Below are positions 6,364-35,034 of a stretch of 64,000 nucleotides of DNA, piece after piece. The stretch lies in contig BCJU01000001.1 of the NCBI GenBank assembly GCA_001600355.1, positions 517,178 through 581,177 on the forward strand, written 5' to 3'. This DNA comes from Meira nashicola (Eukaryota > Basidiomycota > Exobasidiomycetes > Exobasidiales > Brachybasidiaceae). Within the stretch, counting starts at the first letter, position 1, and every line of letters begins with the position of its first letter. The translations under genes were made by a program, and so were the position numbers. The notes under the pieces are model-generated. The model was not told where the DNA came from and did no database searches. It was given only the letters and a program-made list of their open reading frames with translations.

Positions 6364-6891
6364 ATGTTCCTTAAAACTTTTAAAGTACTCTTTCTTATTG
6401 TAACGCTTGTCCAAGTGACACAATGCGTTCGTCCATCATCCTCAACATCATCTAGTAATGCTTCTGCCACTTTAGTACGCGGTCAAGACGATGAACCAAA
6501 CAATGCATTTGCAAATCCTGTTGCAGCACGCAAAAATTTAAAGAGTCAAGCCTTCTATCAACGTTTAGATGCTCATAATTTAAGCGCAAATTATCTTAGA
6601 CGTTATGGAGCTTCAGATGCTGAATTAGAAGAAGCTGGAAAAAAGAAGCAAGAATTGACAAAAGCAGCTATTAAAAGTGAAAAGAATGTTGTTAAACTTG
6701 ATAAGCTTGCTAAACAATTAGGTTCAAAAGATGATAAACAATTACAACGTTTACGTCCAAATCCACGTAGTACTAAAATTCAAAAGAAGCCTATGTCTAA
6801 TGAAGTACGTAAATTAACTGCTGGACAAAACACTGTTGTAAGCAAAAAATCTGGCTATAGCTTACGTTCAAAGGCGAAAAAGACTCAATGA
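6364..6891 (+). CDS. Small secreted basic protein, unknown function (pair member A)
   Basis: 175 residues from the ATG at 6364, chosen because it opens a clear signal peptide (MFLKTFKVLFLIVTLVQVTQ then C) and follows a TATA box; the longer frame back to 6211 would bury the signal. After the signal comes a Ser/Thr-rich linker, then a helical Lys-rich region (AFYQRLDAHNL, ELTKAAIKSEKNVVKLDKLA) and a very basic tail ending SLRSKAKKTQ. No cysteine follows the one at the signal boundary. I do not recognise a family. The neighbour at 7212 has the same architecture (compare KLDKLAKQL with KMEKVAKRL), so the two look like diverged tandem duplicates. A distant tie to the array at 22.8-28.3 kb is possible but unproven. 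Confidence 0.75.
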   Translation: MFLKTFKVLFLIVTLVQVTQCVRPSSSTSSSNASATLVRGQDDEPNNAFANPVAARKNLKSQAFYQRLDAHNLSANYLRRYGASDAELEEAGKKKQELTKAAIKSEKNVVKLDKLAKQLGSKDDKQLQRLRPNPRSTKIQKKPMSNEVRKLTAGQNTVVSKKSGYSLRSKAKKTQ

Positions 6892-7211: not shown

Positions 7212-7718
7212 ATGTTTCATCATAATGCCTTTGCATTTTTATACTTTACCTTCATCTTTTCAATTGTTTTGATACAATTTGGTAATTGTGTAAAATCAGA
7301 ACCCAATTCAAGATCTTCATCCTCATCATCACCAGTGAGTAATAACCATCAAGAGGTTGGAGCATCTTCATCAAAATATCCATATCATTCTCCAACTAAA
7401 TTTGCAAAAGGTTTACGTCGTAATGAAAAACATCATACAAAATTATACGTAATGTATTCTGATAAAATTGGATCAACAAATAATCCTTATTATCAATTGA
7501 TTTATAATTCACATGCTAAAGATAGCCTTTTACGTTCACGTAAAAGTGCGGAAAAAGCGGAAAAGATGGAAAAAGTTGCAAAAAGATTAAGAATCGATAG
7601 TAAGTTTTCCGTTAAAGATCAACCAAGAACTCGATTACAAGCTAAAAAGTCACAAGAAAGTCAACACGCAGCAACTTCATCACATTCTGCTGACACCAAT
7701 TCTGATGCTACATCATGA
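7212..7718 (+). CDS. Small secreted basic protein, unknown function (pair member B)
   Basis: 168 residues. The first ~26 residues (MFHHNAFAFLYFTFIFSIVL, then a stretch ending FGNC) form a signal peptide whose boundary carries a cysteine, as in the neighbour at 6364. A Ser-rich segment follows, then a Lys/Arg-rich helical part (SRKSAEKAEKMEKVAKRL) and a polar tail rich in Ser, His and Thr. No other cysteine and no membrane segment. No known family recognised. It lies head-to-tail with its likely paralogue and its stop is only 48 bases from the stop of the convergent U2AF35 gene, so the transcripts probably overlap. Confidence 0.75.
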   Translation: MFHHNAFAFLYFTFIFSIVLIQFGNCVKSEPNSRSSSSSSPVSNNHQEVGASSSKYPYHSPTKFAKGLRRNEKHHTKLYVMYSDKIGSTNNPYYQLIYNSHAKDSLLRSRKSAEKAEKMEKVAKRLRIDSKFSVKDQPRTRLQAKKSQESQHAATSSHSADTNSDATS

Positions 7719-20980: not shown

Positions 20981-22462
20981 TTACCTACAACGAGTATGAA
21001 CAATATTCGGGCCATGTTCGTCGTATTCTTGTTTACTAATCCACAATTGATGGAAAGTACCTAAGCTGGCCAAAATGCTTCCGCCTAACCAAGAAGAGAA
21101 TTTTCGTTCGATAACATTACCGGGTGAATGAATTTTGACCTTTTGACCTGGTAATTTCAATCCAAGCTCGTACGAAAGACGATCGTTGAAGCCTTGAATC
21201 ATAGAAGAACCACCTACACAAACGATATTTTGTAAAAGAGCAGCACGTGAATCTACATCGGTCGATTCGATTGCGCTCATGATTAAATCAATGATTGATC
21301 TATGAGATTGTTGTCCTGAAGCTGTAGGAGGTAAAACATCTCCCAAACCTTCGAATATCTGTGGAGTGAATAACACTTCTGGAGCTCTGAATCGTTCGAT
21401 GCCATAATTATCATTAAATCCATCAGGGAATTCAAAACTACGTAGAGGTCTTGCGGCTGCTTGTTGTTCGTTCCATGGTTCTTCCAAAATTTGCGCCAAA
21501 GTTTCCTTTGCTTCGTGTAAGATTCGCATTGTTTGGAATTGCTTGAATGAATCAGTTGTGTTTTCGATTCTCTCTTCGCGTAGCTTAGTAGGTGGTTTAG
21601 CTCCTGCAACTGTAGGTGCTTTGCTTTTGACGAGATAGTGTGGAATAATGTCGACTAAACCGCCTTGACGATGGCTGTTGGCTGGTGCGGCTGTGGTGAG
21701 ATCATACAGTAAAGCACGAGAGATGCAATCTCCACCTAAGCCAGCCTGTCTTTGAATGCCTTTTCGTAGAATGAACCCGTCTACAACAGGAATGGCTGAA
21801 GATTGAGAAGCACCGATATCAACGATCAAAGAAGTTGGCTTTCCAGCGGAAAATGAACTTAGAACGGTCGAATTGGCCAAATAAAATGCAGGAACGCCAA
21901 GACCTTCGAATGCGAATTGTGTTAATTCTTCCCTCGCTTCTTTTGAATTCCAAGATGGTTCTGTGAGTAAAAGTGGATGTTCTCTTGCATCACATCCTAA
22001 AACATCATCTAAGGAATATCTTGCTAATGCTAATGCAGAAGCAGGAGAAGTTAAAATTCCATCTTCCAAGGGATTACCGATTTCCATATTTGCACGCCAA
22101 ACGTTCACTCCTGCATCTCCAACGAATCTTTTTCTACTTTCAGCTTTTTGTTTCTGTTTTTCCCAATCTGAGATTGCCTTTTTGGTTGTTGTGGTTGTGG
22201 TGGTCCCATTTGTTGAAGTTCCATTAACTGTTTCACCATTTGTTTCTCTTGCTTCTTCTTGATTCTTTTCGTTTGTTTCAACACCTTCCATCTGTACATC
22301 ATCATCACCTTGTTCTTCTTCTTGTTCTGTCGGTAGCCAACCATAATTGGTAGGAATTAATGCTCTAGGCGTATCTTCACCTGCCCATCCTGCTCTAGTA
22401 GAAGATGAACCGATATCCAAAACGATTGCAGAGATATCATCTCCTCCGTATACGCCTGGCAT
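20981..22462 (-). CDS. ARP4: Actin-related protein 4 (chromatin remodelling)
   Basis: Single exon, 493 residues, the same size as yeast Arp4. The N-terminus MPGVYGGDDISAIVLDIGSS followed by SSTRAGWAGEDTPRALIPTN is typical of Arp4/BAF53. A linker at about residues 48-100, rich in Glu, Asn, Gly and Thr, replaces part of actin subdomain 2. The actin core follows (LLTEPSWNSKEAREELTQFA, SLIVDIGASQSSAIPVVDGF, NIVCVGGSSMIQGFNDRL). The C-terminus SWLGGSILASLGTFHQLWIS then KQEYDEHG is a family hallmark. Arp4 is a nuclear subunit of NuA4, INO80 and SWR1 complexes. It flanks the secreted-protein array on its left. Confidence 0.93.
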   Translation of the reverse strand: MPGVYGGDDISAIVLDIGSSSTRAGWAGEDTPRALIPTNYGWLPTEQEEEQGDDDVQMEGVETNEKNQEEARETNGETVNGTSTNGTTTTTTTKKAISDWEKQKQKAESRKRFVGDAGVNVWRANMEIGNPLEDGILTSPASALALARYSLDDVLGCDAREHPLLLTEPSWNSKEAREELTQFAFEGLGVPAFYLANSTVLSSFSAGKPTSLIVDIGASQSSAIPVVDGFILRKGIQRQAGLGGDCISRALLYDLTTAAPANSHRQGGLVDIIPHYLVKSKAPTVAGAKPPTKLREERIENTTDSFKQFQTMRILHEAKETLAQILEEPWNEQQAAARPLRSFEFPDGFNDNYGIERFRAPEVLFTPQIFEGLGDVLPPTASGQQSHRSIIDLIMSAIESTDVDSRAALLQNIVCVGGSSMIQGFNDRLSYELGLKLPGQKVKIHSPGNVIERKFSSWLGGSILASLGTFHQLWISKQEYDEHGPNIVHTRCR

Positions 22463-22772: not shown

Positions 22773-23315
22773 CTATGAATAACCTTTGGGTAACTTTTTC
22801 TTAGATCTTAAATGGTCAACATTCTTTTCGCCCGGCAGCTTAACTCCATCTTTTAATTCTCGGATTAAAGTTTTGTGTTTTTGGATTTTATCACCATGTT
22901 CCAAACTTTTTGATTGAAGGTATTTTGTACGCGGATTATCATCACCTGGATGAGAAGGTGCATTAGGATTTCTAAAAGCAGCATTAAGTTCATCAATATA
23001 ATCTTCTTGTTCGATTCGATGATACATTTCTTTCGCTTTATGATAGTTTAATGTTCCTTTTGTTCTTTCCTTATTTTCATCTTGCATTCGTACATGCAAT
23101 TGATCATGTTCATTATTTAATACATGACCATGTTCTTGCGAATGACTATCAGCGTTTGTTTGGCCGCCGCGCATGTGGATGTGGGATTGATGGTTAGTAC
23201 CTTCTGTTACTTGAATGTTGACATGAGCATCTTTCACGTCACTGACATGAACTGCTTGAACGTATGTGAAAATAAGAGCGAGAAAGAAGATAGAACGCAT
23301 AATTACGTTAATCAT
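22773..23315 (-). CDS. Array member 1: small secreted protein
   Basis: 180 residues from the ATG at 23315; a second ATG at 23300 would also leave a full signal peptide (MRSIFFLALIFTYVQA). The frame further up begins only at TTG. The signal is followed by a His/Asp/Gln-rich segment unique to this member (HIHMRGGQTNADSHSQEHGH), then NYHKAKEMYHRIEQ, a middle helix with EHGDKIQKHKTLIRELKDG, and KLPGEKNVDHLRSKKKLPKG at the end. There is no cysteine in the mature part. It is the longest array member and lies at the downstream edge. Function unknown; secretion is inferred from the signal peptide. Confidence 0.82.
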   Translation of the reverse strand: MINVIMRSIFFLALIFTYVQAVHVSDVKDAHVNIQVTEGTNHQSHIHMRGGQTNADSHSQEHGHVLNNEHDQLHVRMQDENKERTKGTLNYHKAKEMYHRIEQEDYIDELNAAFRNPNAPSHPGDDNPRTKYLQSKSLEHGDKIQKHKTLIRELKDGVKLPGEKNVDHLRSKKKLPKGYS

Positions 23316-23660
23316 GTTTTGAGAAGAGGAAAAGAGATAAATGTGCAAAAATTGACCGTTTTATAATGTGCTTTTTTTCCTTTTCGCATTTTAATAAAAT
23401 GCAATTCACTGCTTTTCATTCAAACAACGCCCTCCTTTAAACGCAACCGAGAACAAGCCGATATTGGAATGGCAAAAAAAATGCAAATTTTATCAACATT
23501 ATTTACACAAAAGGGAGAAAACGCTAAAAACGAAGAAAAGGATGAAACTAGTCTTTTAAGTTTAATGCGCTCTTAGGACCAGGATGCATTGATTGACTTG
23601 TTATATCCATTTCTTGTGCTTTATGTTAGAGTATGATTATACGTCCTATATATCCTATAA
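23316..23660. other. Spacer between array members 1 and 2
   Basis: 345 AT-rich bases. Apart from the TATA box near the member 1 start I see no gene or remnant; the right part should be the 3' untranslated region of member 2. Confidence 0.4.
23359..23365 (-). promoter_or_regulatory. TATA box of array member 1
   Basis: TATAAAA on the minus strand, 44-50 bases upstream of the ATG at 23315. Confidence 0.5.
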
Positions 23661-24062
23661 TTAAGGTGAAGAGTTTGTTCTACTAGTCCCTACTTGAGGA
23701 TTTGCTGTTTGTCCCGAGTTGAGTTTTCTCTTTTTCGTGATATGCTCAACAGTTTTTTCTCCTTCAATCTTGTTTCCAGAATGAATATCTTTGATGATTT
23801 TATTATGCTTTTTTACCTTTTTATTGAAATAATTTGCAACAGAATTTAAATCAGAAGTAGTTTCTTCTTTTAGTGGTTTTTGATTAGTATTTACTTTTGA
23901 TAATTCTCCCAATGATGTCATTACACTTTTAAAATAGTTTTGATGTTCGGTTCGCTTTGCTTCGTGATATTCAATACGGCCTGAAGTTTTACCTTTTGCT
24001 TTATCATCAGCACATACAACTCTTTCGATAAGAAAAAAGATAAAAATCTTATTAACCTTCAT
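23661..24062 (-). CDS. Array member 2: small secreted protein
   Basis: 133 residues from the ATG at 24062 (MKVNKIFIFFLIERVVCADD), chosen because it places a signal peptide at the N-terminus; the frame continues 20 residues further without such a signal at its start. Family motifs: EYHEAKRTEH, then YFNKKVKKHNKIIKDIHSGN and KIEGEKTVEHITKKRKL, where the usual LPG is EG. The tail is polar (Asn, Ser, Thr). A cysteine sits at the end of the signal peptide and none follows. A TTTTATAAG element lies about 100 bases upstream. Function unknown. Confidence 0.8.
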   Translation of the reverse strand: MKVNKIFIFFLIERVVCADDKAKGKTSGRIEYHEAKRTEHQNYFKSVMTSLGELSKVNTNQKPLKEETTSDLNSVANYFNKKVKKHNKIIKDIHSGNKIEGEKTVEHITKKRKLNSGQTANPQVGTSRTNSSP

Positions 24063-24380
24063 GATGCAACATAGACGTAGAGAGGAACAGTATGCTTTTC
24101 TTTTCAAAAGATAGTCATACACTCAAATTTTAGCACCGCAACACTGCAACACAAATTGCGTGCTTATAAAAGTCTCTACGAGATTTGGTCATATGGTCTT
24201 ACATATGGTTGTAAGTACTTACCCGCATCGCCACAACACCGAACGGGTTATCAATTAAACACAAATGCGCTTTAAAAAGTCATAAATAGGATTGAGGTGA
24301 ACAAGAAAACATATATAAGAACAAAAGGATAGGTAAAGATTGAAGGAAAAGATGTTGAATACGTGAAAGGAAATATTGAA
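24063..24380. other. Spacer between array members 2 and 3
   Basis: 318 AT-rich bases with no coding feature seen. A TATA-like TTTTATAAG (minus strand, about 24163-24171) may serve member 2. Confidence 0.4.
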
Positions 24381-24761
24381 CTATAAAACTTGTTCATGTG
24401 ACTCTTTTGGATCATGTCCTGCTTCAATTTTAGCAAGCTTTTGCTCGAAGTGTTGCGGATTTTTAGGTCCAGGTAATTTATCTCCAGCACGAAGGAGAGC
24501 AATATCTTCTGTATGCTTAGAAGCTTTATGACTTAATTTTGATCGAATTGGTTGTAAGTTAACTGGTGCTACACCTCCATTTTGTTTGACCATATAATTA
24601 TGAGCCTCATCAATAAGCTTAATGTGTTCACCATGTTTTGCACGTTTTAATTTATGGTAATCTTCATTTCCTGATGTTCTTTTCTTCTCGACGTAATTAG
24701 CATAAAGAACATCATTGCAAATAGCAAAGAAGAATAAAAAGAATAAAAAGGAAGTTTTCAT
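24381..24761 (-). CDS. Array member 3: small secreted protein
   Basis: 126 residues from the ATG at 24761. A very hydrophobic signal peptide (MKTSFLFFLFFFAICNDVLY) is followed almost directly by EDYHKLKRAKHGEHIKLIDE, so this member lacks the Ser-rich linker of others. The middle part is LQPIRSKLSHKASKHTEDIA, and the C-terminal motif KLPGPKNPQHFEQKLAKIEA is intact. No cysteine lies in the mature part. Dibasic KKR and KR sites could be Kex2 targets, but this is only a possibility. Function unknown. Confidence 0.82.
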   Translation of the reverse strand: MKTSFLFFLFFFAICNDVLYANYVEKKRTSGNEDYHKLKRAKHGEHIKLIDEAHNYMVKQNGGVAPVNLQPIRSKLSHKASKHTEDIALLRAGDKLPGPKNPQHFEQKLAKIEAGHDPKESHEQVL

Positions 24762-25180
24762 GATAAAAGGTAAATGTGTTAGTGGTAAAAAAGAGATACT
24801 CGATTTCCTATCAATATTCCCTACTTAAATACTTTTTAGGGAGAAGACTTTTACACTATATTTCAAGCAATATACTGTCAAGAACATCGCATTCGCCTCG
24901 CATCGTCATGATGACGAATGCTATATACGATATCTTCCATGTATGAGCCATCGTGGCTATGTTTTGTTTTTTTCGCGCGAAAGGAGCACGTTTATGCGTT
25001 TAAGACCGGTGCAAAAAAATGGCAATACTCTATAAATATACTAAACAATCCTGTGCATTACCAAATATTCACGTATCTTGACATCGAATTTTCACCGCTT
25101 ACATCATTTTACGGCTTGATAAGTAAAAAGGCTGAATATATACAAAGCGATGATGATAAGGGGGGCTGTGTAGCAGTAAT
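24762..25180. other. Spacer between array members 3 and 4
   Basis: 419 bases, the longest spacer of the array. No signal-peptide frame or decayed family copy was recognised on either strand. Confidence 0.4.
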
Positions 25181-25615
25181 TCATGTCTTTTTGGTGCTTT
25201 TGGGTAATTTACCTCTATCATAAAGATATTTTTTCGTTTTTTTACCTGGTAATTTACGTACACGAGATAAATCCAACAAAGCATTAGTTTGTTTTCCTGC
25301 TTTCTTATTGAAATAATACATAACAGGTCTTAAATCTGTTTTTTTCTTTTGTTCTTCTGTCATTTTATCATTTTTAAATGTTGTTAGAATATCATATGTA
25401 TCTTTTGCACGATTAGCAAAATCATAAAATTTCACTTCTTTAGCAGCGTGATATTCAATATCTCCTCCCGTCTTTTTCCATTCAAAGTTTGACACACTTG
25501 GCTCGCCGCCCGTTTCACCTGGTTTACTTGATTCACCTTCTCCGCTAGCATTGATAGCATGAATGAATAAAAGAATAATCTTTAACATAAAAGTAAATTC
25601 AACTTTCATTCTCAT
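25181..25615 (-). CDS. Array member 4: small secreted protein
   Basis: 144 residues from the ATG at 25615 (MRMKVEFTFMLKIILLFIHA); an ATG two codons later is equally possible, and the frame upstream starts only at TTG. A Gly/Glu/Ser linker follows the signal peptide, then IEYHAAKEVKFYDFANRAKD, YYFNKKAGKQTNALLDLSRV and KLPGKKTKKYLYDRGKLPKS. The mature protein has no cysteine and a very basic C-terminus. It shares YFNKK with member 2. Function unknown. Confidence 0.82.
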   Translation of the reverse strand: MRMKVEFTFMLKIILLFIHAINASGEGESSKPGETGGEPSVSNFEWKKTGGDIEYHAAKEVKFYDFANRAKDTYDILTTFKNDKMTEEQKKKTDLRPVMYYFNKKAGKQTNALLDLSRVRKLPGKKTKKYLYDRGKLPKSTKKT

Positions 25616-25898
25616 ATTTGTCAATGCTTTTTAGATAAAGTGGTCTGTCTGCAAAATAAAATTCGCAAACATTTAACCTTAAATAATGCAGACATTTGCG
25701 TATCTTCCGCAACTTTGAAGGTTTAAAGATCAAAGTTTGTGTATGGCTTTGTATTCAAATGCATCGCTAGTTTGATATGCAATAAACTACTTGCCTCTTT
25801 CGTCATCTGTATAGGATTATAAATATTTCATTTAAGAGTAGATCATGATACGAAATGAACAGGGAATAAAGAATGAATATATATAGCTACACTAGCAT

Positions 25899-26357
25899 TT
25901 ATTCAGGAGGTTGATAATTCGCTCCAACTTTTCCCTTCTCTTTAAGATAATCGAGATTCTTTTTACCTGGAAGTTTATCATCATTTTTTAATTGATGAAT
26001 AGTTGTAAGATGCTTGCTACTTTTACGACAAAAATGATTGATAAGAGGAACTAAACTATGATTTTGATCAAATTCTTTTTTAGCAGATGGACCCTTAGAC
26101 ATATCTACGTAATCGTTTGGTTCTTGTAGTTTTTCAGCACTGTATGTTATTTCACGTAAAGTCATATGTTTGTGTAACTTTGCTCGATGATAATCTAGAT
26201 CACCTTTTGCTAATGGAGCTTCCTTTGGTGGGGATGCAGTAGAAGAAGAGCTACTACCTGCTACTTCTTTACCTTTTCCACTTGCACAATGTACATTAGA
26301 AATTGTTGTAACAGCATACCCAAAACTAATCAAGACGGAATGAAGACCTACTTTCAT
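25899..26357 (-). CDS. Array member 5: small secreted protein
   Basis: 152 residues. The signal peptide (MKVGLHSVLISFGYAVTTIS then NVHC) is nearly the same as that of member 6, and the similarity continues at DNA level through the 3' part, so the two are the most recent duplicates in the array. A Ser/Pro linker is followed by DLDYHRAKLHKHMTLREITY, HFCRKSSKHLTTIHQLKNDD and KLPGKKNLDYLKEKGKVGAN. One cysteine remains in the mature part (FCRK). A TATATATAT element lies about 65 bases upstream. Function unknown. Confidence 0.84.
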   Translation of the reverse strand: MKVGLHSVLISFGYAVTTISNVHCASGKGKEVAGSSSSSTASPPKEAPLAKGDLDYHRAKLHKHMTLREITYSAEKLQEPNDYVDMSKGPSAKKEFDQNHSLVPLINHFCRKSSKHLTTIHQLKNDDKLPGKKNLDYLKEKGKVGANYQPPE

Positions 26358-26418
26358 CTTTTTTGAGGGATTAAAGATGGTTTAGTGAAGCAAGATTGTG
26401 TAAGCCCTTAAATTCTAC

Positions 26419-26427
26419 TATATATAT
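26419..26427 (-). promoter_or_regulatory. TATA box of array member 5
   Basis: An alternating TATATATAT run 62-70 bases upstream of the ATG at 26357 on the minus strand. Confidence 0.5.
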
Positions 26428-26574
26428 GAATTAAAAACATTTTTGTGTAAAATCGGCAAAGATCATCGGGGTTTCCTCTTCCTTGTTTAGTTTGTTTATT
26501 TATCATCTACACACAGCATGATACACAAACTTCTTCTAGGTTATTATAATATGATATACGAATATAACTTGTAA

Positions 26575-27003
26575 TTAAGGAGTTGGTCGATAATTTGCTG
26601 GTATTTTTCCCTTCTTTTTAAGATAATCAAGATTTTTTAGACCTTGACGTTTATCACCATTTCTTAAATCTTGTATGATTGCAATATGTTTCTTACTTTT
26701 ACTACGAAAATGACGTACAACAGAACCTAAGTTGGTTCCTACTTTTGAGTGATCTATGTTACTATTCATTTTTTGAAAATCTTCTGCTGTTGCTGCAATT
26801 TCATGAAAAGTCATGTGTTTGTGTAACTTTGCTTTATAATAATCCGTATTCCCTTTTACGAAAGGAATGCCTTCTTGAGAAGTGGAAGCATAAGTACTCT
26901 CTATTACTTCTTTACCTTTTGAGGTACTTGAACAATGAACGTTGGAGAATATTGTTATAACATATACTATACTAACCAATACGGTATATAGACCTACTTT
27001 CAT
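26575..27003 (-). CDS. Array member 6: small secreted protein
   Basis: 142 residues from the ATG at 27003 (MKVGLYTVLVSIVYVITIFS then NVHC); the frame upstream of it starts at TTG. Family segments: NTDYYKAKLHKHMTFHEIAA (H of the motif is Y here), HFRSKSKKHIAIIQDLRNGD and KRQGLKNLDYLKKKGKIPAN, where LPG has become RQG. It is the close duplicate of member 5. No cysteine follows the signal boundary. Function unknown. Confidence 0.82.
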   Translation of the reverse strand: MKVGLYTVLVSIVYVITIFSNVHCSSTSKGKEVIESTYASTSQEGIPFVKGNTDYYKAKLHKHMTFHEIAATAEDFQKMNSNIDHSKVGTNLGSVVRHFRSKSKKHIAIIQDLRNGDKRQGLKNLDYLKKKGKIPANYRPTP

Positions 27004-27173
27004 CCTCTTTGAGATCAGAGATGGTTTATAACACAAGAATCAATGAATCGCACTTCTGTTTTGTGTATATTTATTAAAGAGGATTGGGGCTTACCAGTCT
27101 TTGCAGTGTACACACACACAGTCTAAGTAAAAATCATTTCATTATGCAAATACCGATGGACATACACACACGA

Positions 27174-27592
27174 TCAATTTTCAAAAGTATGAGGTAATTT
27201 AACCTTATTTGCCAAATCAACAACAGTTTGAGGACCAGGTAATTTACGTAAAAATGTTAAATCTTTTACATTTCGATGATTTTTTTTATCTTTCTTTCAA
27301 GATGTTGAACGACAGGTTCGATTCCATGTTCAGAACAAAAGAAATGATTTGGTTTTTTCTTATTTTCTGCAATTTGTTTTGCAAATGCTTCACGACTTCT
27401 ACTGTGTAAATCTAAATCTCTTCCTAATTTAACTTCGTGAAATTGTTGATCTCCTTCAGTTCTTTCCATTGTTTCAGCATGACTTTTACCTTTACCTTTT
27501 TTTGTGTTCTTATTATTGCCAACGCATGATGCGTATAAAATAAGAAAAGAGAAAAGATAAAAAAGGCAAGTTAAAAAACCAACTTTATTCAT
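27174..27592 (-). pseudogene. Array member 7: small secreted protein, frameshifted in an A8 run
   Basis: The frame from the ATG at 27592 encodes a signal peptide (MNKVGFLTCLFYLFSFLILY then ASC), a Lys-rich linker, the motif QQFHEVKLGRDLDLHSR and VVQHLERKIKK, then runs into a stop at 27266 after 108 residues. The expected C-terminal module (DLTFLRKLPGPQTVVDLANK, ending with a stop at 27174-27176) is present in another frame. The frames part company at a run of eight A on the gene strand (27280-27287). A single-base length change in that run explains it, either a real mutation or a sequencing error. The truncated 108-residue product would keep the signal and first motif. Confidence 0.75.
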
Positions 27593-27890
27593 CTTGACAA
27601 TGAAGGTTGTGGATAAAAAAAGAAAGAAAGTATGCTAAATGACGTGCTTTTATCTTGTATTTTAATCTGAATACGCCAAACAAAAGTGTTTTATATGCAA
27701 TCGGAGTCATAGATTACTAGATTTACTTGAAAGATAAGTTGTTTATCATAAGTAGGGCGTTTACAAAATCATTCAAAAGCTTTGGCGTAATATTTGTATC
27801 TTTTCTTCCGAAGTGCAATGGAATTATAGATATCATTTGATAAGAAACATGAATTCATAGTATGATTATTATAGAGCATAATACCATATC

Positions 27891-28325
27891 TCATTCTTTT
27901 CCACCTCTACTCAAAGCATATTCTTTTCTTTCTTTGAGTCTTAATTTTCTCAACGATTTTGGACCTGGTAAAGCGTTCATTTCGGTTAAAGCCAAAACAG
28001 CAAATTCATTCTTTCTTGCTTTAACGTCAAAATGATCAACTACAGGTTTCATATCATTCATTAAAGTGATTTGATTATCTTTTGGATTTAATAAACTTTG
28101 TGCAATTTGTTGGGCGTGTGCAACTTTTGCTCTACTATGAAAATCTGCATTTCTTTTCGCTTTAAATTTATGATAATCAATCGTACCACTTGTTCTTACT
28201 GATGATGAAGTACTGGCAGTAGTAGTAGATTGAAGTTCTTTACCCTTTTTCTTGACGCAATTGACTCCATCAATCGAGATATAAATAAACACAATAAGTG
28301 TCACAAGGACACGAATAATAACCAT
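27891..28325 (-). CDS. Array member 8: small secreted protein
   Basis: 144 residues if translation starts at the ATG at 28325, which has an ideal context (ACCATGG) and opens a signal peptide (MVIIRVLVTLIVFIYISIDG then VNC). In-frame ATGs at 28337 and 28409 exist; the latter would give 172 residues with a buried hydrophobic segment, that is, a signal anchor. After a Ser/Thr linker come TIDYHKFKAKRNADFHSRAK, VVDHFDVKARKNEFAVLALT and ALPGPKSLRKLRLKERKEYA. It is the first gene of the array in the direction of transcription and begins close behind the PEX5 stop, so its promoter lies in the PEX5 3' region. Confidence 0.78.
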   Translation of the reverse strand: MVIIRVLVTLIVFIYISIDGVNCVKKKGKELQSTTTASTSSSVRTSGTIDYHKFKAKRNADFHSRAKVAHAQQIAQSLLNPKDNQITLMNDMKPVVDHFDVKARKNEFAVLALTEMNALPGPKSLRKLRLKERKEYALSRGGKE

Positions 28326-28472
28326 GGTTATTAACATGTAAGTAGAAAGAAGAAAACTCTTTCCTCTCTCAAAGAGAGACTTTAAACACTTTTCAAGATG
28401 TACAGCCATGTGTAAAGGTACTTGATATGCAAAAAAAAAGGAATAAATAATCTATTAAATAGTAGAAATTGT

Positions 28473-31073
28473 TTACATAGTTGGCTCCATTGCAACATTG
28501 TTTCCTTCACCTTCCGATCCCCAAAATTCGCTAGGATCAAAAGCGTCCAAATCATGCTTTGCCGCAAGATCAGCTAAATCTGGACGATCTAGTAATTCAC
28601 AACAAACTCTTAAAGTTTCGAAAAGACTACTTGAAGTAACGCTACTATTTCTTGCTGTTGCTGTAGTTTCTTGCATCATTGCATCTCCGCTTAAATCAAC
28701 ACTTTCAGATTGTAAACATAAAGCTGTGTAAATATGAGAAGCAGCTTCACGATACATTTGTAAATTTAAACATGAAATACTCATGTTAAAATGACAACGT
28801 ACAAAGCCAGGCTTCAAATCCAATGCTTGTTGATAATACCTTAAAGCTTCTGCACTTCTACCCGAATTGCTCAATGTTGCACCTAATCGATTATACATTA
28901 ACCAATCATCAGGTCGTACCTGTAAAGCTGCTGTGAAACAATCGACAGCTTTATCGTAATCTTCTGAAGCATTGAACAAAACACCTAAAGCTACTTGAAT
29001 ATCGGCATCAATATTGTTTTGAGTGGAACTATGTCTTGCCAAAGCGATCAACAATTTAATTAATGCTTCATGACGTTCGATTTGTGTTTGAGATGCTTTG
29101 TTGATTGGATTTTGTGATTCGTCAAATTGTTTGCGATATTCACGTACGATTGCACGGTATTCCGGAGTTGCATCAACCCATCGTTCGACTGCCTCTAAAG
29201 CAGCATTACGATCAGATTCGTTCGTATAACTAACAGCAAGAGCTAGCCAAGCCTCGCGAATCGTTGGATCGATTTGAATAGCTCTTTGAAGTGCAGCAAT
29301 GGCCAAACCTTCTCTTTCATTCTCTTGTTGTTTAACACCCAAATCTAACCAAGCACTTGCATTATTCGGATCTTGTTGAACGGCAGCTTCCCGTTCTAAA
29401 ACAGATTGCATATCTGCCGGTAAAGCTGCAGTTGTGGCCTCACGAGCAGGATTAGATGTAGCACCGATGTATGGATTATAAGCATGAAACTGATATTGTG
29501 GTGCTGAAGCAGCAGAAACTGGAGCTTCGCGTGATTGTTCCAAACCTGCACTTGTTGCTTGCCATGTATCCCAATCTTTTTGTAAAGCATCCCATTCGGC
29601 AGCTTGCATTCCTGGTACTCCGCGACCTTTGTTGCCTTGCCATTGTCGTCCAACAAAATCTGCATTTTCTAATTCGTCAATGTCTTCTTCCATTCCATTG
29701 GATGATTTGCTGTCTTGCTTCAATCCTGCTGCTGCCGGTCCAAGGTGTGCGCCAAGTAAGCCTTGATATTTCATGAACTCTGCATCGTCTTCTGCCCTTC
29801 TTTGAACTTCATCTCCTCCATCCCCTACAAATGCCATCCTATTCATGCGCAATTGTTCTTCTGCTTCCTTTTGTGCTTCTTCTTCTGCCCATAAATCGTT
29901 CATCATTTGTCGACCTTCAAGCTCTTCTTTTAAAGCATCAGGCCCATGTGCAAGTACTCGAGTAGAGTTGAGAGCATTCATTTGAGATCTTTGATTCATC
30001 GCTTCCATCTGATTATTGGGTTTTTGTGTTGTGCTAGCGGAAGGGTCAAACGCTCTCCCTTTGCCTTTGTCTAGAACGGGTGCTTGAGCAGCATTCTGTT
30101 GATCTACAGGTGTTTCAACAATATCGGTTCCTTGTATACCTGCTTGTCTATCACGAACTTTTCGCATCAGGTTAAGAAATTTACTCTGCTTGAACTTGTC
30201 ATTAGTCTCATGTTCGACAGTCGACACAAGTCTACCGGCCGTCTTTGCCAACTCGTCTGCTTCATTTGGGTCAATCGGTCTTTGTGCTTGTTCGGCATTT
30301 TGCTCTGGGATTTCTGAAATCTGTGCAGAAGGCACTGGTTCTTGATGTTGTTCAATAGCACTGAAAGCTGTATTCCATTGATCGGTATCTGAAGCAAGGC
30401 TTTGACCAGTTTGTTGTACGTTTTGCATTGTTGACATTGGACGATGAACTTCTTGAGGAGCAAAACCTGGACGATTCATAATGCCCATTTGACCTGCACC
30501 ATAACCTTGATAAGACATTGGCATAGGGCCGTAGGACATTGGTCGATGTAGTTGATTTTGATGAACGTGCTGTGGTTGATGTTGCAAAGACGATTGTGAG
30601 CTTGTTGGATTTGCATTCATTGCAGATGGAGAATACTCCCTTGCCCAACGAGAATCAGCATTGGTTGTAGGTGGTGTACAATGTCTGAAACCTCGTTCAA
30701 AATGTTCTCTTTGAGCAGCTGGAATAGATTGATTTTGTTGAGCGGGATGATGCTGCCATGCTCCATTCAAATCAACTTGTGGCGAATGATGCGTATATGC
30801 TGATGATCTTGAACTTTGTGCTAAAGGCAAAGCACCTTGTAAAGGTTGCATATCAAAAGAAGGTCCACCATTTTGAAAGAATGCCGGATTATCTGATTGT
30901 CCACGTGTATGATGTTGATGACCTCTAAATGTAGGCATCATATTTGCATCACCTTCTCCATCAAATCGATCCATCTGAGTACTACGATCTTGCCCAAATC
31001 GCTTTCCCAAACTTTGCAATGGGTTTGAGGGCCCACAAGCGGGCCCTCCCGTTACCAAATCTGACAACGGCAT
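28473..31073 (-). CDS. PEX5: Peroxisomal targeting signal 1 receptor
   Basis: Single exon, 866 residues from the ATG at 31073 (an upstream in-frame GTG is ignored). The N-terminus MPLSDLVTGGPACGPSNPLQ has the conserved cysteine (C13) used for ubiquitin-dependent recycling. The long disordered N-half is Gln/Asn/Met-rich and contains Trp motifs such as WNTAF and LWAEE that bind Pex13/Pex14. The C-terminal TPR region (~560-800; NASAWLDLGVKQQENEREGL, EAWLALAVSYTNESDRNAAL, RPDDWLMYNRLGATLSNSGR) binds SKL-type signals. It carries cargo into peroxisomes. At 866 residues it is longer than most Pex5 proteins because of the disordered half. It borders the secreted array on its right. Confidence 0.95.
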   Translation of the reverse strand: MPLSDLVTGGPACGPSNPLQSLGKRFGQDRSTQMDRFDGEGDANMMPTFRGHQHHTRGQSDNPAFFQNGGPSFDMQPLQGALPLAQSSRSSAYTHHSPQVDLNGAWQHHPAQQNQSIPAAQREHFERGFRHCTPPTTNADSRWAREYSPSAMNANPTSSQSSLQHQPQHVHQNQLHRPMSYGPMPMSYQGYGAGQMGIMNRPGFAPQEVHRPMSTMQNVQQTGQSLASDTDQWNTAFSAIEQHQEPVPSAQISEIPEQNAEQAQRPIDPNEADELAKTAGRLVSTVEHETNDKFKQSKFLNLMRKVRDRQAGIQGTDIVETPVDQQNAAQAPVLDKGKGRAFDPSASTTQKPNNQMEAMNQRSQMNALNSTRVLAHGPDALKEELEGRQMMNDLWAEEEAQKEAEEQLRMNRMAFVGDGGDEVQRRAEDDAEFMKYQGLLGAHLGPAAAGLKQDSKSSNGMEEDIDELENADFVGRQWQGNKGRGVPGMQAAEWDALQKDWDTWQATSAGLEQSREAPVSAASAPQYQFHAYNPYIGATSNPAREATTAALPADMQSVLEREAAVQQDPNNASAWLDLGVKQQENEREGLAIAALQRAIQIDPTIREAWLALAVSYTNESDRNAALEAVERWVDATPEYRAIVREYRKQFDESQNPINKASQTQIERHEALIKLLIALARHSSTQNNIDADIQVALGVLFNASEDYDKAVDCFTAALQVRPDDWLMYNRLGATLSNSGRSAEALRYYQQALDLKPGFVRCHFNMSISCLNLQMYREAASHIYTALCLQSESVDLSGDAMMQETTATARNSSVTSSSLFETLRVCCELLDRPDLADLAAKHDLDAFDPSEFWGSEGEGNNVAMEPTM

Positions 31074-34593: not shown

Positions 34594-35034
34594 ATGAATA
34601 ATTCATCAACCCTCTTAGACTTCATCTTTGTCTTGATATTTGCATACTTTATGCTTATTCAACCGGGGCAAGCAGTACCTGTGCATACTCTATCAGTAAA
34701 ACAAACCAAATCAATTCATAGCACAGCAATTTCTCATGATTTGCATTTGCCTCACTTTGCTGGTAATCAAAAACGTGGCATTACATTGAATCAGATCAAA
34801 TATCCCTTCAAACAAGCATCAAATAAAGCACAAAGATTTCGTTTTGCAACAAAAGAAAAATATTTCGAACTAAGATCTGGCATGAAGTTTGCTCTTGGCT
34901 GGCATGAAGAAGGAAGAATGTTTCAAGCTAAAGCCGATGAACAAGCAAAAAAGTATAATAATTTATTCAATTCTGCCAAAAAGAGGAGGGAAGATCTGAT
35001 TAAAGAGAAAGCCAACAAGAAAAGAAAGCAATGA
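34594..35034 (+). CDS. Small secreted basic protein, orphan
   Basis: 146 residues from the ATG at 34594; the frame begins two codons earlier only with TTG. The N-terminal ~28 residues (MNNSSTLLDFIFVLIFAYFM, ending QPGQA) are a signal peptide. The mature part is rich in Lys, His and Gln, with HDLHLPHFAGNQKRGITLNQ, FRFATKEKYFELRSGMKF and a strongly basic helical tail (AKKRREDLIKEKANKKRK). There is no cysteine. Size, basic charge and promoter resemble the array proteins, but the YHxxK and LPGxK motifs are absent, so it may be an unrelated or very diverged member. No known family recognised. Confidence 0.72.
   Translation: MNNSSTLLDFIFVLIFAYFMLIQPGQAVPVHTLSVKQTKSIHSTAISHDLHLPHFAGNQKRGITLNQIKYPFKQASNKAQRFRFATKEKYFELRSGMKFALGWHEEGRMFQAKADEQAKKYNNLFNSAKKRREDLIKEKANKKRKQ

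Follow-up and report, generated by a model that had tools for sequence, protein, structure and literature searches.

A row of eight genes for one family of small, basic, putatively secreted proteins in the basidiomycete Meira nashicola

Eight adjacent open reading frames (ORFs), all on the minus strand, occupy positions 22773-28325 of a 64,000-nucleotide stretch of the genome of the basidiomycete Meira nashicola (the window; bases 517178-581177 of the 6.97-Mb contig 1 in a genome of 17.88 Mb over 20 contigs). Do these genes (g1 to g8 by rising coordinate; Table 1) encode one family, where else does it occur, and what might its members do? Judged by sequence comparison, the array encodes one homologous protein family, whose unit is a repeatable domain of about 95 residues with the pattern TxGxxxYHxxK...KxxK...PGxK. 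The array is not the complete family; a second locus on the same contig, 2.7 Mb away, carries further members.

A common domain in eight neighbouring genes

Homology is supported by leave-one-out profile searches of 11 units, namely three units of the second locus and the eight genes of the array, g7 being represented by its first piece alone. All 11 units scored 26.2-62.2 bits against a best shuffled score of 10.1-16.9, and none of 2000 shuffles reached the score of any unit. g5 and g6 were excluded from each other's profiles, as were the two halves of a two-domain protein; the units had been picked as relatives beforehand, so that the test addresses membership rather than family size. An alignment of the eight array proteins shows a common C-terminal domain, with the other proteins 21-31% identical to g1 and with a variable middle part that differs in length among members.

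All eight array proteins have a hydrophobic N-terminus, the maximum Kyte-Doolittle mean over 11 residues being 1.61-3.14, in agreement with the signal peptides proposed by an earlier, sequence-only reading of this DNA; a stricter hydropathy filter (threshold 2.3) is passed by six of the eight, with g2 (2.25) and g5 (1.81) below it. The motif [DENQ][YF][HY]xxK, which that reading also attributed to every gene, is indeed present in 8/8, and when all six frames of the window were scanned for G...[YF][HY]..[KR], ten matches were obtained, the eight array genes and two elsewhere. A later LPGxK-like motif had likewise been assigned to all members, but the strict form is found in only five of them, the exceptions being g2 (IEGEK), g6 (RQGLK) and g7, where the segment LPGPQ sits in the other frame. 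With cut sites placed by eye, the mature parts contain no or one cysteine and 10.8-19.2% lysine and have isoelectric points (pI) of 8.1-10.1, above 9 in seven of the eight; the uninterrupted one-domain members have mature lengths of 95-158 residues, and the array proteins as a whole comprise 126-180 residues (108 for the first piece of g7). The description as small, lysine-rich and nearly cysteine-free proteins therefore stands, but a high histidine content is restricted to some members, the range extending from 0.8% in g4 to 10.1% in g1. The latter is longer than the other array proteins, owing to a His-rich region some 60 residues long; two database relatives, P0006 (84% identical) and P0008 (44-46%), retain the domain and part of this region. 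Hydrophobins, which have eight conserved cysteines, and cysteine-rich effectors are also small secreted fungal proteins, and the near absence of cysteine sets the family apart from both, as had been anticipated.

No Pfam-A model scored over its cut-off for the eight array proteins, three proteins of the second locus or P0008. Sub-threshold hits (E ≤ 1) were taken as chance: six of the eight array proteins had one each, all different, and two had none. The best of them was Bap31 (E 0.0064; 16.8 bits against a cut-off of 22.7) at residues 6-59 of g8, which include the hydrophobic N-terminus, and the best for the second-locus proteins and P0008 was OVT1 (E 0.0028), also below cut-off. Neither g5 nor alignment A2 retrieved a sequence from the PDB, and Foldseek returned no match with E ≤ 0.001, in line with the notion of an unrecognised family. 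Nor was any publication recognised as describing it, a weak negative since a protein motif is not text-searchable.

Fold prediction, proposed earlier as a check, gave a confident AlphaFold2 model for two divergent members. In g5 the domain blocks have predicted local distance difference test (pLDDT) values of 87-98, with lower ones at the tip (68-80) and in residues 41-50 (77); helices span residues 54-78, 90-100, 103-124 and 135-140, and bridge residues are limited to 49, 52, 129 and 133. The second copy in the 228-residue protein of the second locus shows the same order of elements (blocks 131-220, pLDDT 94-98), the two models not being independent as their alignments share rows. The domain is thus confidently predicted to form a hairpin of antiparallel helices, closed at its open end by a clasp in which the segment TxGxxxYHxxK packs on PGxK. 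Among 12 rows (15 minus three close orthologues), G52, K112, K115 and G131 are conserved in all, and Y56, H57, K60 and K133 in 11. The bacterial WXG100 / ESAT-6 proteins are secreted helical hairpins, with a WXG motif between the two helices. However, identity to the family is 12% and 8%, the Z values lie within the stated background for helical models, no W-x-G occurs in the 15 rows of A2, and the family has hydrophobic N-termini. The two would have no more than a shape in common.

Eight adjacent minus-strand genes had been described, and eight ORFs are in place, but one of them is interrupted, which went unnoticed in the sequence-only reading. The open frame of g7 (27266-27592) halts after the KxxK motif, and the rest, up to a stop at 27174-27176, lies in a different frame. 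P0007, an uninterrupted natural relative from another source, is identical to the first side of g7 at 59 of 63 residues. An intron was rejected as cause of the break, as P0007 aligns to both sides with no residues lost between them (by eye). The same interrupted end recurs in the fragment P0009 on two database contigs (the longest of 15,602 bases); the break is therefore seen outside the 6.97-Mb contig as well. It may be real or an assembly error, and the contigs with P0009 possibly stem from the same reads.

Further members and the age of the paralogues

The second locus, overlooked by the sequence-only reading, comprises a one-domain and a two-domain gene. The two domain copies of the 228-residue protein are 51% identical over 90 residues (E 7e-33); it is this protein that identifies the domain as a repeatable unit. 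In the proteins of the Kex2-processed Rep1 type repeats are divided by KR sites. In contrast, neither unit of the two-domain protein contains KR or RR, linker included, and the array proteins (0-2 KR/RR sites in g1-g8) have one domain each. When the genome was searched with seven single proteins (g5, g8, the two second-locus proteins, P0008, g3 and g4), this was the one further locus beyond the array, seen with five of the seven queries (two of them its own) and not with g3 or g4. Two weak matches, at C2:3518613 (E 0.12) and C3:1139094 (E 1.2), were dismissed as members because a domain profile did not recover them at E ≤ 1. This profile, built from the members themselves, was run over the ORFs of the window and eight other loci, both weak-match places included, and its matches at E ≤ 1 were confined to the eight genes of the array, with g7 represented by its first piece, and the two of the second locus. 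The genome therefore holds at least 10 genes and at least 11 domains of the family.

Protein searches yielded 12 identifiers, six of them encoded in the window (P0001 = g8, P0002 = g1, P0003 = g4, P0010 = g5, P0012, identical to g2, and P0009, part of the first piece of g7), five lgn and one jgi. P0004, P0005, P0006 and P0011 are 84-90% identical to g8, g4, g1 and g5, respectively, and probably belong to one species; P0008, 44% identical to g1, is a more distant relative. A scan of prokaryote contigs with alignment A4 (g1 and two relatives) found 19 stretches that fit a pattern, none of which was confirmed.

Counterparts in the close relative were thus found for four of the eight genes (g1, g4, g5 and g8), one-to-one and with open reading frames; none was found for g2 and g3, and for g7 only P0007. 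P0005, P0006 and P0011 each lie on one contig, the longest of 2654 bases, and g1 to g5 span 3585 bases here; should the three share that contig, it may lack g2 and g3. A domain tree of 16 rows, with P0007 standing for g7, unites g1 with P0006 and P0008 (support 98/97), places g5 with P0011 (96/96) within a group containing g6 (92/93), and sets the second locus apart (96/97). Four forks of this tree are open, and the long branches of g3, P0007 and g2 may be falsely joined according to a warning of the program. The one-to-one pairs, the position of g6 outside g5 and P0011, and the grouping of P0008 with g1 indicate that those paralogues that can be placed were distinct before the splits from both the close and the more distant relative. 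The array had been thought to represent an expanding family; these sequences point instead to older paralogues and do not support a recent expansion or an arms race. The comparison with the close relative thus cautions against the presumption that arrays of this type are recent and caught in an arms race.

Possible functions of the family

Rows of genes for small secreted proteins often act against hosts or neighbours, and an effector-like role for them is well known. The reading we prefer, at a probability of roughly 45%, is that of a lineage-restricted, effector-like family whose small, cationic and putatively secreted members combine a conserved cationic clasp with a variable tip. The array proteins would leave the cell, as their hydropathy suggests; the conserved Tyr/His/Lys set would hold the clasp and fold together or bind an acidic ligand, such as phosphate groups or an acidic polysaccharide like pectin; the variable hairpin tip would set the target of each member; and the protein set would act, effector-like, on the surface of host or adjacent cells. 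An interaction with host, microbe or cell surface may thus be what the family serves. A similar arrangement of tandem fungal genes for small novel secreted proteins is cluster 19A of Ustilago maydis, which is reported to encode 24 secreted effectors (PMC4081774). The likeness is one of description; unlike 19A, the array consists of one homologous family with one domain, and it is known here from its genes alone. Operationally, fungal candidate effectors are small proteins with a secretion signal and no recognised domain that are lineage-restricted and host-induced, diversifying selection being common but not required. With 126-180 residues and, by hydropathy, a hydrophobic N-terminus in 8/8 (6/8 with the stricter filter), the array proteins share their small size and secretion signal.

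Several observations weigh against this reading. Secretion is predicted from hydropathy and not from SignalP, and ligand binding is read from conservation alone, with the conserved residues assumed to form one patch. Restriction to a lineage has been weakly tested, because one protein search missed P0008 although P0008 was part of its query, which reveals limited sensitivity. Co-regulation of the array genes is not supported, since among 11 upstream regions (one of a non-member) no 8- or 9-base word was common to at least five; shorter common words are AT-rich and only mildly enriched. Nor does selection look like that of an arms race: between g5 and its nearest paralogue g6 (53% protein identity; two DNA blocks 74% and 76% identical) the whole-gene nonsynonymous (dN) and synonymous (dS) divergences are 0.34 and 0.65 (dN/dS 0.52), and the tip, which has the highest proportion of nonsynonymous differences (pN; 0.39) of five segments, also has a near-saturated synonymous proportion (pS; 0.72). 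Divergence from the close relative gives a mixed picture. The mature part has changed less than the signal region in g4 (7.8% versus 31.8%) and g8 (5.7% versus 20.0%, taking the first 50 residues of a 172-residue form), and the trend is opposite in g1 (16.5% versus 9.1%) and g5 (15.1% versus 12.0%); these rates, which lack a housekeeping background, may be called neither fast nor slow.

Among the alternatives, an antimicrobial or competitor-directed function, in which secreted Lys-rich helical hairpins would affect membranes or nucleic acids of neighbouring microbes, is unlikely but the most probable. It needs no host and is consistent with the helical model, the scarcity of cysteine (0-1), the high pI (8.1-10.1, above 9 in 7/8) and lysine contents of up to 19.2%. 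However, invariant Gly, Tyr, His and Lys residues and a confidently predicted clasped domain exceed what a simple amphipathic peptide requires, and pore peptides are typically shorter than the 95-158 residues of the mature one-domain members. Somewhat less likely still, the proteins might belong to the fungus' own wall, capsule or mucilage, where they would bind acidic polysaccharide and have neither an enemy nor a host as target. The conserved lysine positions, the good conservation of mature g4 and g8 in the close relative and a domain that can be repeated within one chain, as would suit a cross-linker, all fit this idea, yet paralogues only 21-31% identical to g1 (53% for g5 and g6) with middle parts of different length would be unusual for a single structural role.

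It is improbable, and of all explanations the least likely, that the array is partly decaying and that some copies are non-functional. g7 is interrupted, P0009 has the same interrupted end on two database contigs, and the second motif lacks some of its residues in g2 and g6; against this, seven of the eight frames are open, the counterparts of g1, g4, g5 and g8 in the close relative are open at 84-90% identity, the dN/dS of g5 and g6 is below 1, and an uninterrupted relative of g7 exists in P0007.

The family might also represent a new fungal superfamily of secreted domains, a rather unlikely proposal that we advance tentatively. Here, a clasped hairpin with invariant Tyr-His-Lys, Lys-x-x-Lys and Gly-x-Lys sets would read one class of acidic ligand, being used singly in arrays and doubled in one chain, and its tip would be a recognition loop open to change, allowing a single scaffold to address several extracellular targets. 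A cluster of small secreted proteins in a fungus is in itself a familiar kind of finding, but this family matched neither a Pfam model above cut-off nor a sequence in the PDB. New here are the definition of the domain, the predicted clasped hairpin and the second locus with its internal repeat. Now that the domain is defined, its fold is confidently predicted and a few invariant residues are known, the eight orphan genes pose a single problem, in which fold, ligand and target can be approached through one member.

Gene neighbourhoods and other secreted-looking frames

The placement of the array between ARP4 and PEX5 genes, noted earlier, was borne out by the Pfam and PDB matches of both flanks (Table 1). 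The array interval has a GC content of 33.1%, compared with 41.4% and 38.9% on its two sides, 39.3% in the window and 39.9% in 68 kb of other loci of the same genome. Start sites leave some latitude: g4 entered the alignments in a 135-residue form (start 25588), and an in-frame Met of g8 at 28409 would yield 172 residues, the listed length of its relative P0004.

Table 1. Coordinates of the array genes, their flanking genes and the second-locus genes (window positions unless marked C1, contig 1)
Feature	Position	Strand	Description
Left flank	20981..22462	-	ARP4-like actin-related protein; PF00022 E 7.2e-121; top PDB match Arp4
g1	22773..23315	-	180 residues; hydrophobic N-terminus, extra His-rich region (~60 residues), predicted clasp-hairpin domain
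g2	23661..24062	-	133 residues; one domain; second motif diverged to IEGEK
g3	24381..24761	-	126 residues; one domain
g4	25181..25609	-	142 residues from upstream Met, as in P0003, matched by P0005
g5	25899..26357	-	152 residues; one domain; structure predicted; P0011 of close relative 85% identical
g6	26575..27003	-	142 residues; second motif diverged to RQGLK
g7	27174..27592	-	interrupted gene; first piece 27266-27592, 108 residues
g8	27891..28325	-	144 residues; one domain
Right flank	28473..31073	-	PEX5-like PTS1 receptor (TPR); top PDB matches PEX5-related protein and PTS1 receptor
Second-locus gene 1	C1:3253813-3254169	+	118 residues; one domain
Second-locus gene 2	C1:3254719-3255405	+	228 residues; two domains

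The second locus is flanked by a BRF1-like gene (N-terminus similar to the TFIIIB subunit) and by a gene for a CHZ1-like small acidic protein, both recognised by eye. Adjoining it, C1:3255629-3256135 encodes a secreted-looking protein of 168 residues with no Pfam model over cut-off, weak genome matches and no match to the family. On the same contig, C1:3236078-3245222 holds eight consecutive minus-strand ORFs of at least 90 residues, several with a similar short membrane-like stretch (by eye), which is perhaps another local duplication.

A search of the genome for the Rfam 5.8S ribosomal RNA gave no matches (39 of 857 first-look candidates scored), and ribosomal DNA may be absent from the assembly. 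Within the window, two adjacent secreted-looking ORFs on the plus strand (6364-6891 and 7212-7718; 175 and 168 residues), Lys-rich by eye and with no Pfam match, resemble the array proteins in style but not in sequence; genome matches of the latter beyond itself are weak (E 0.04 and 0.16). Another secreted-looking ORF (34594-35034, plus strand; 146 residues), also Lys-rich by eye, found only its own place in a genome search at E ≤ 1. On contig 3, two neighbouring minus-strand frames (positions 1195-1815 and 2105-2632 of locus L040) encode secreted-looking proteins for which Pfam gave no match at E ≤ 0.01; by eye, one of the two is very rich in lysine and arginine.

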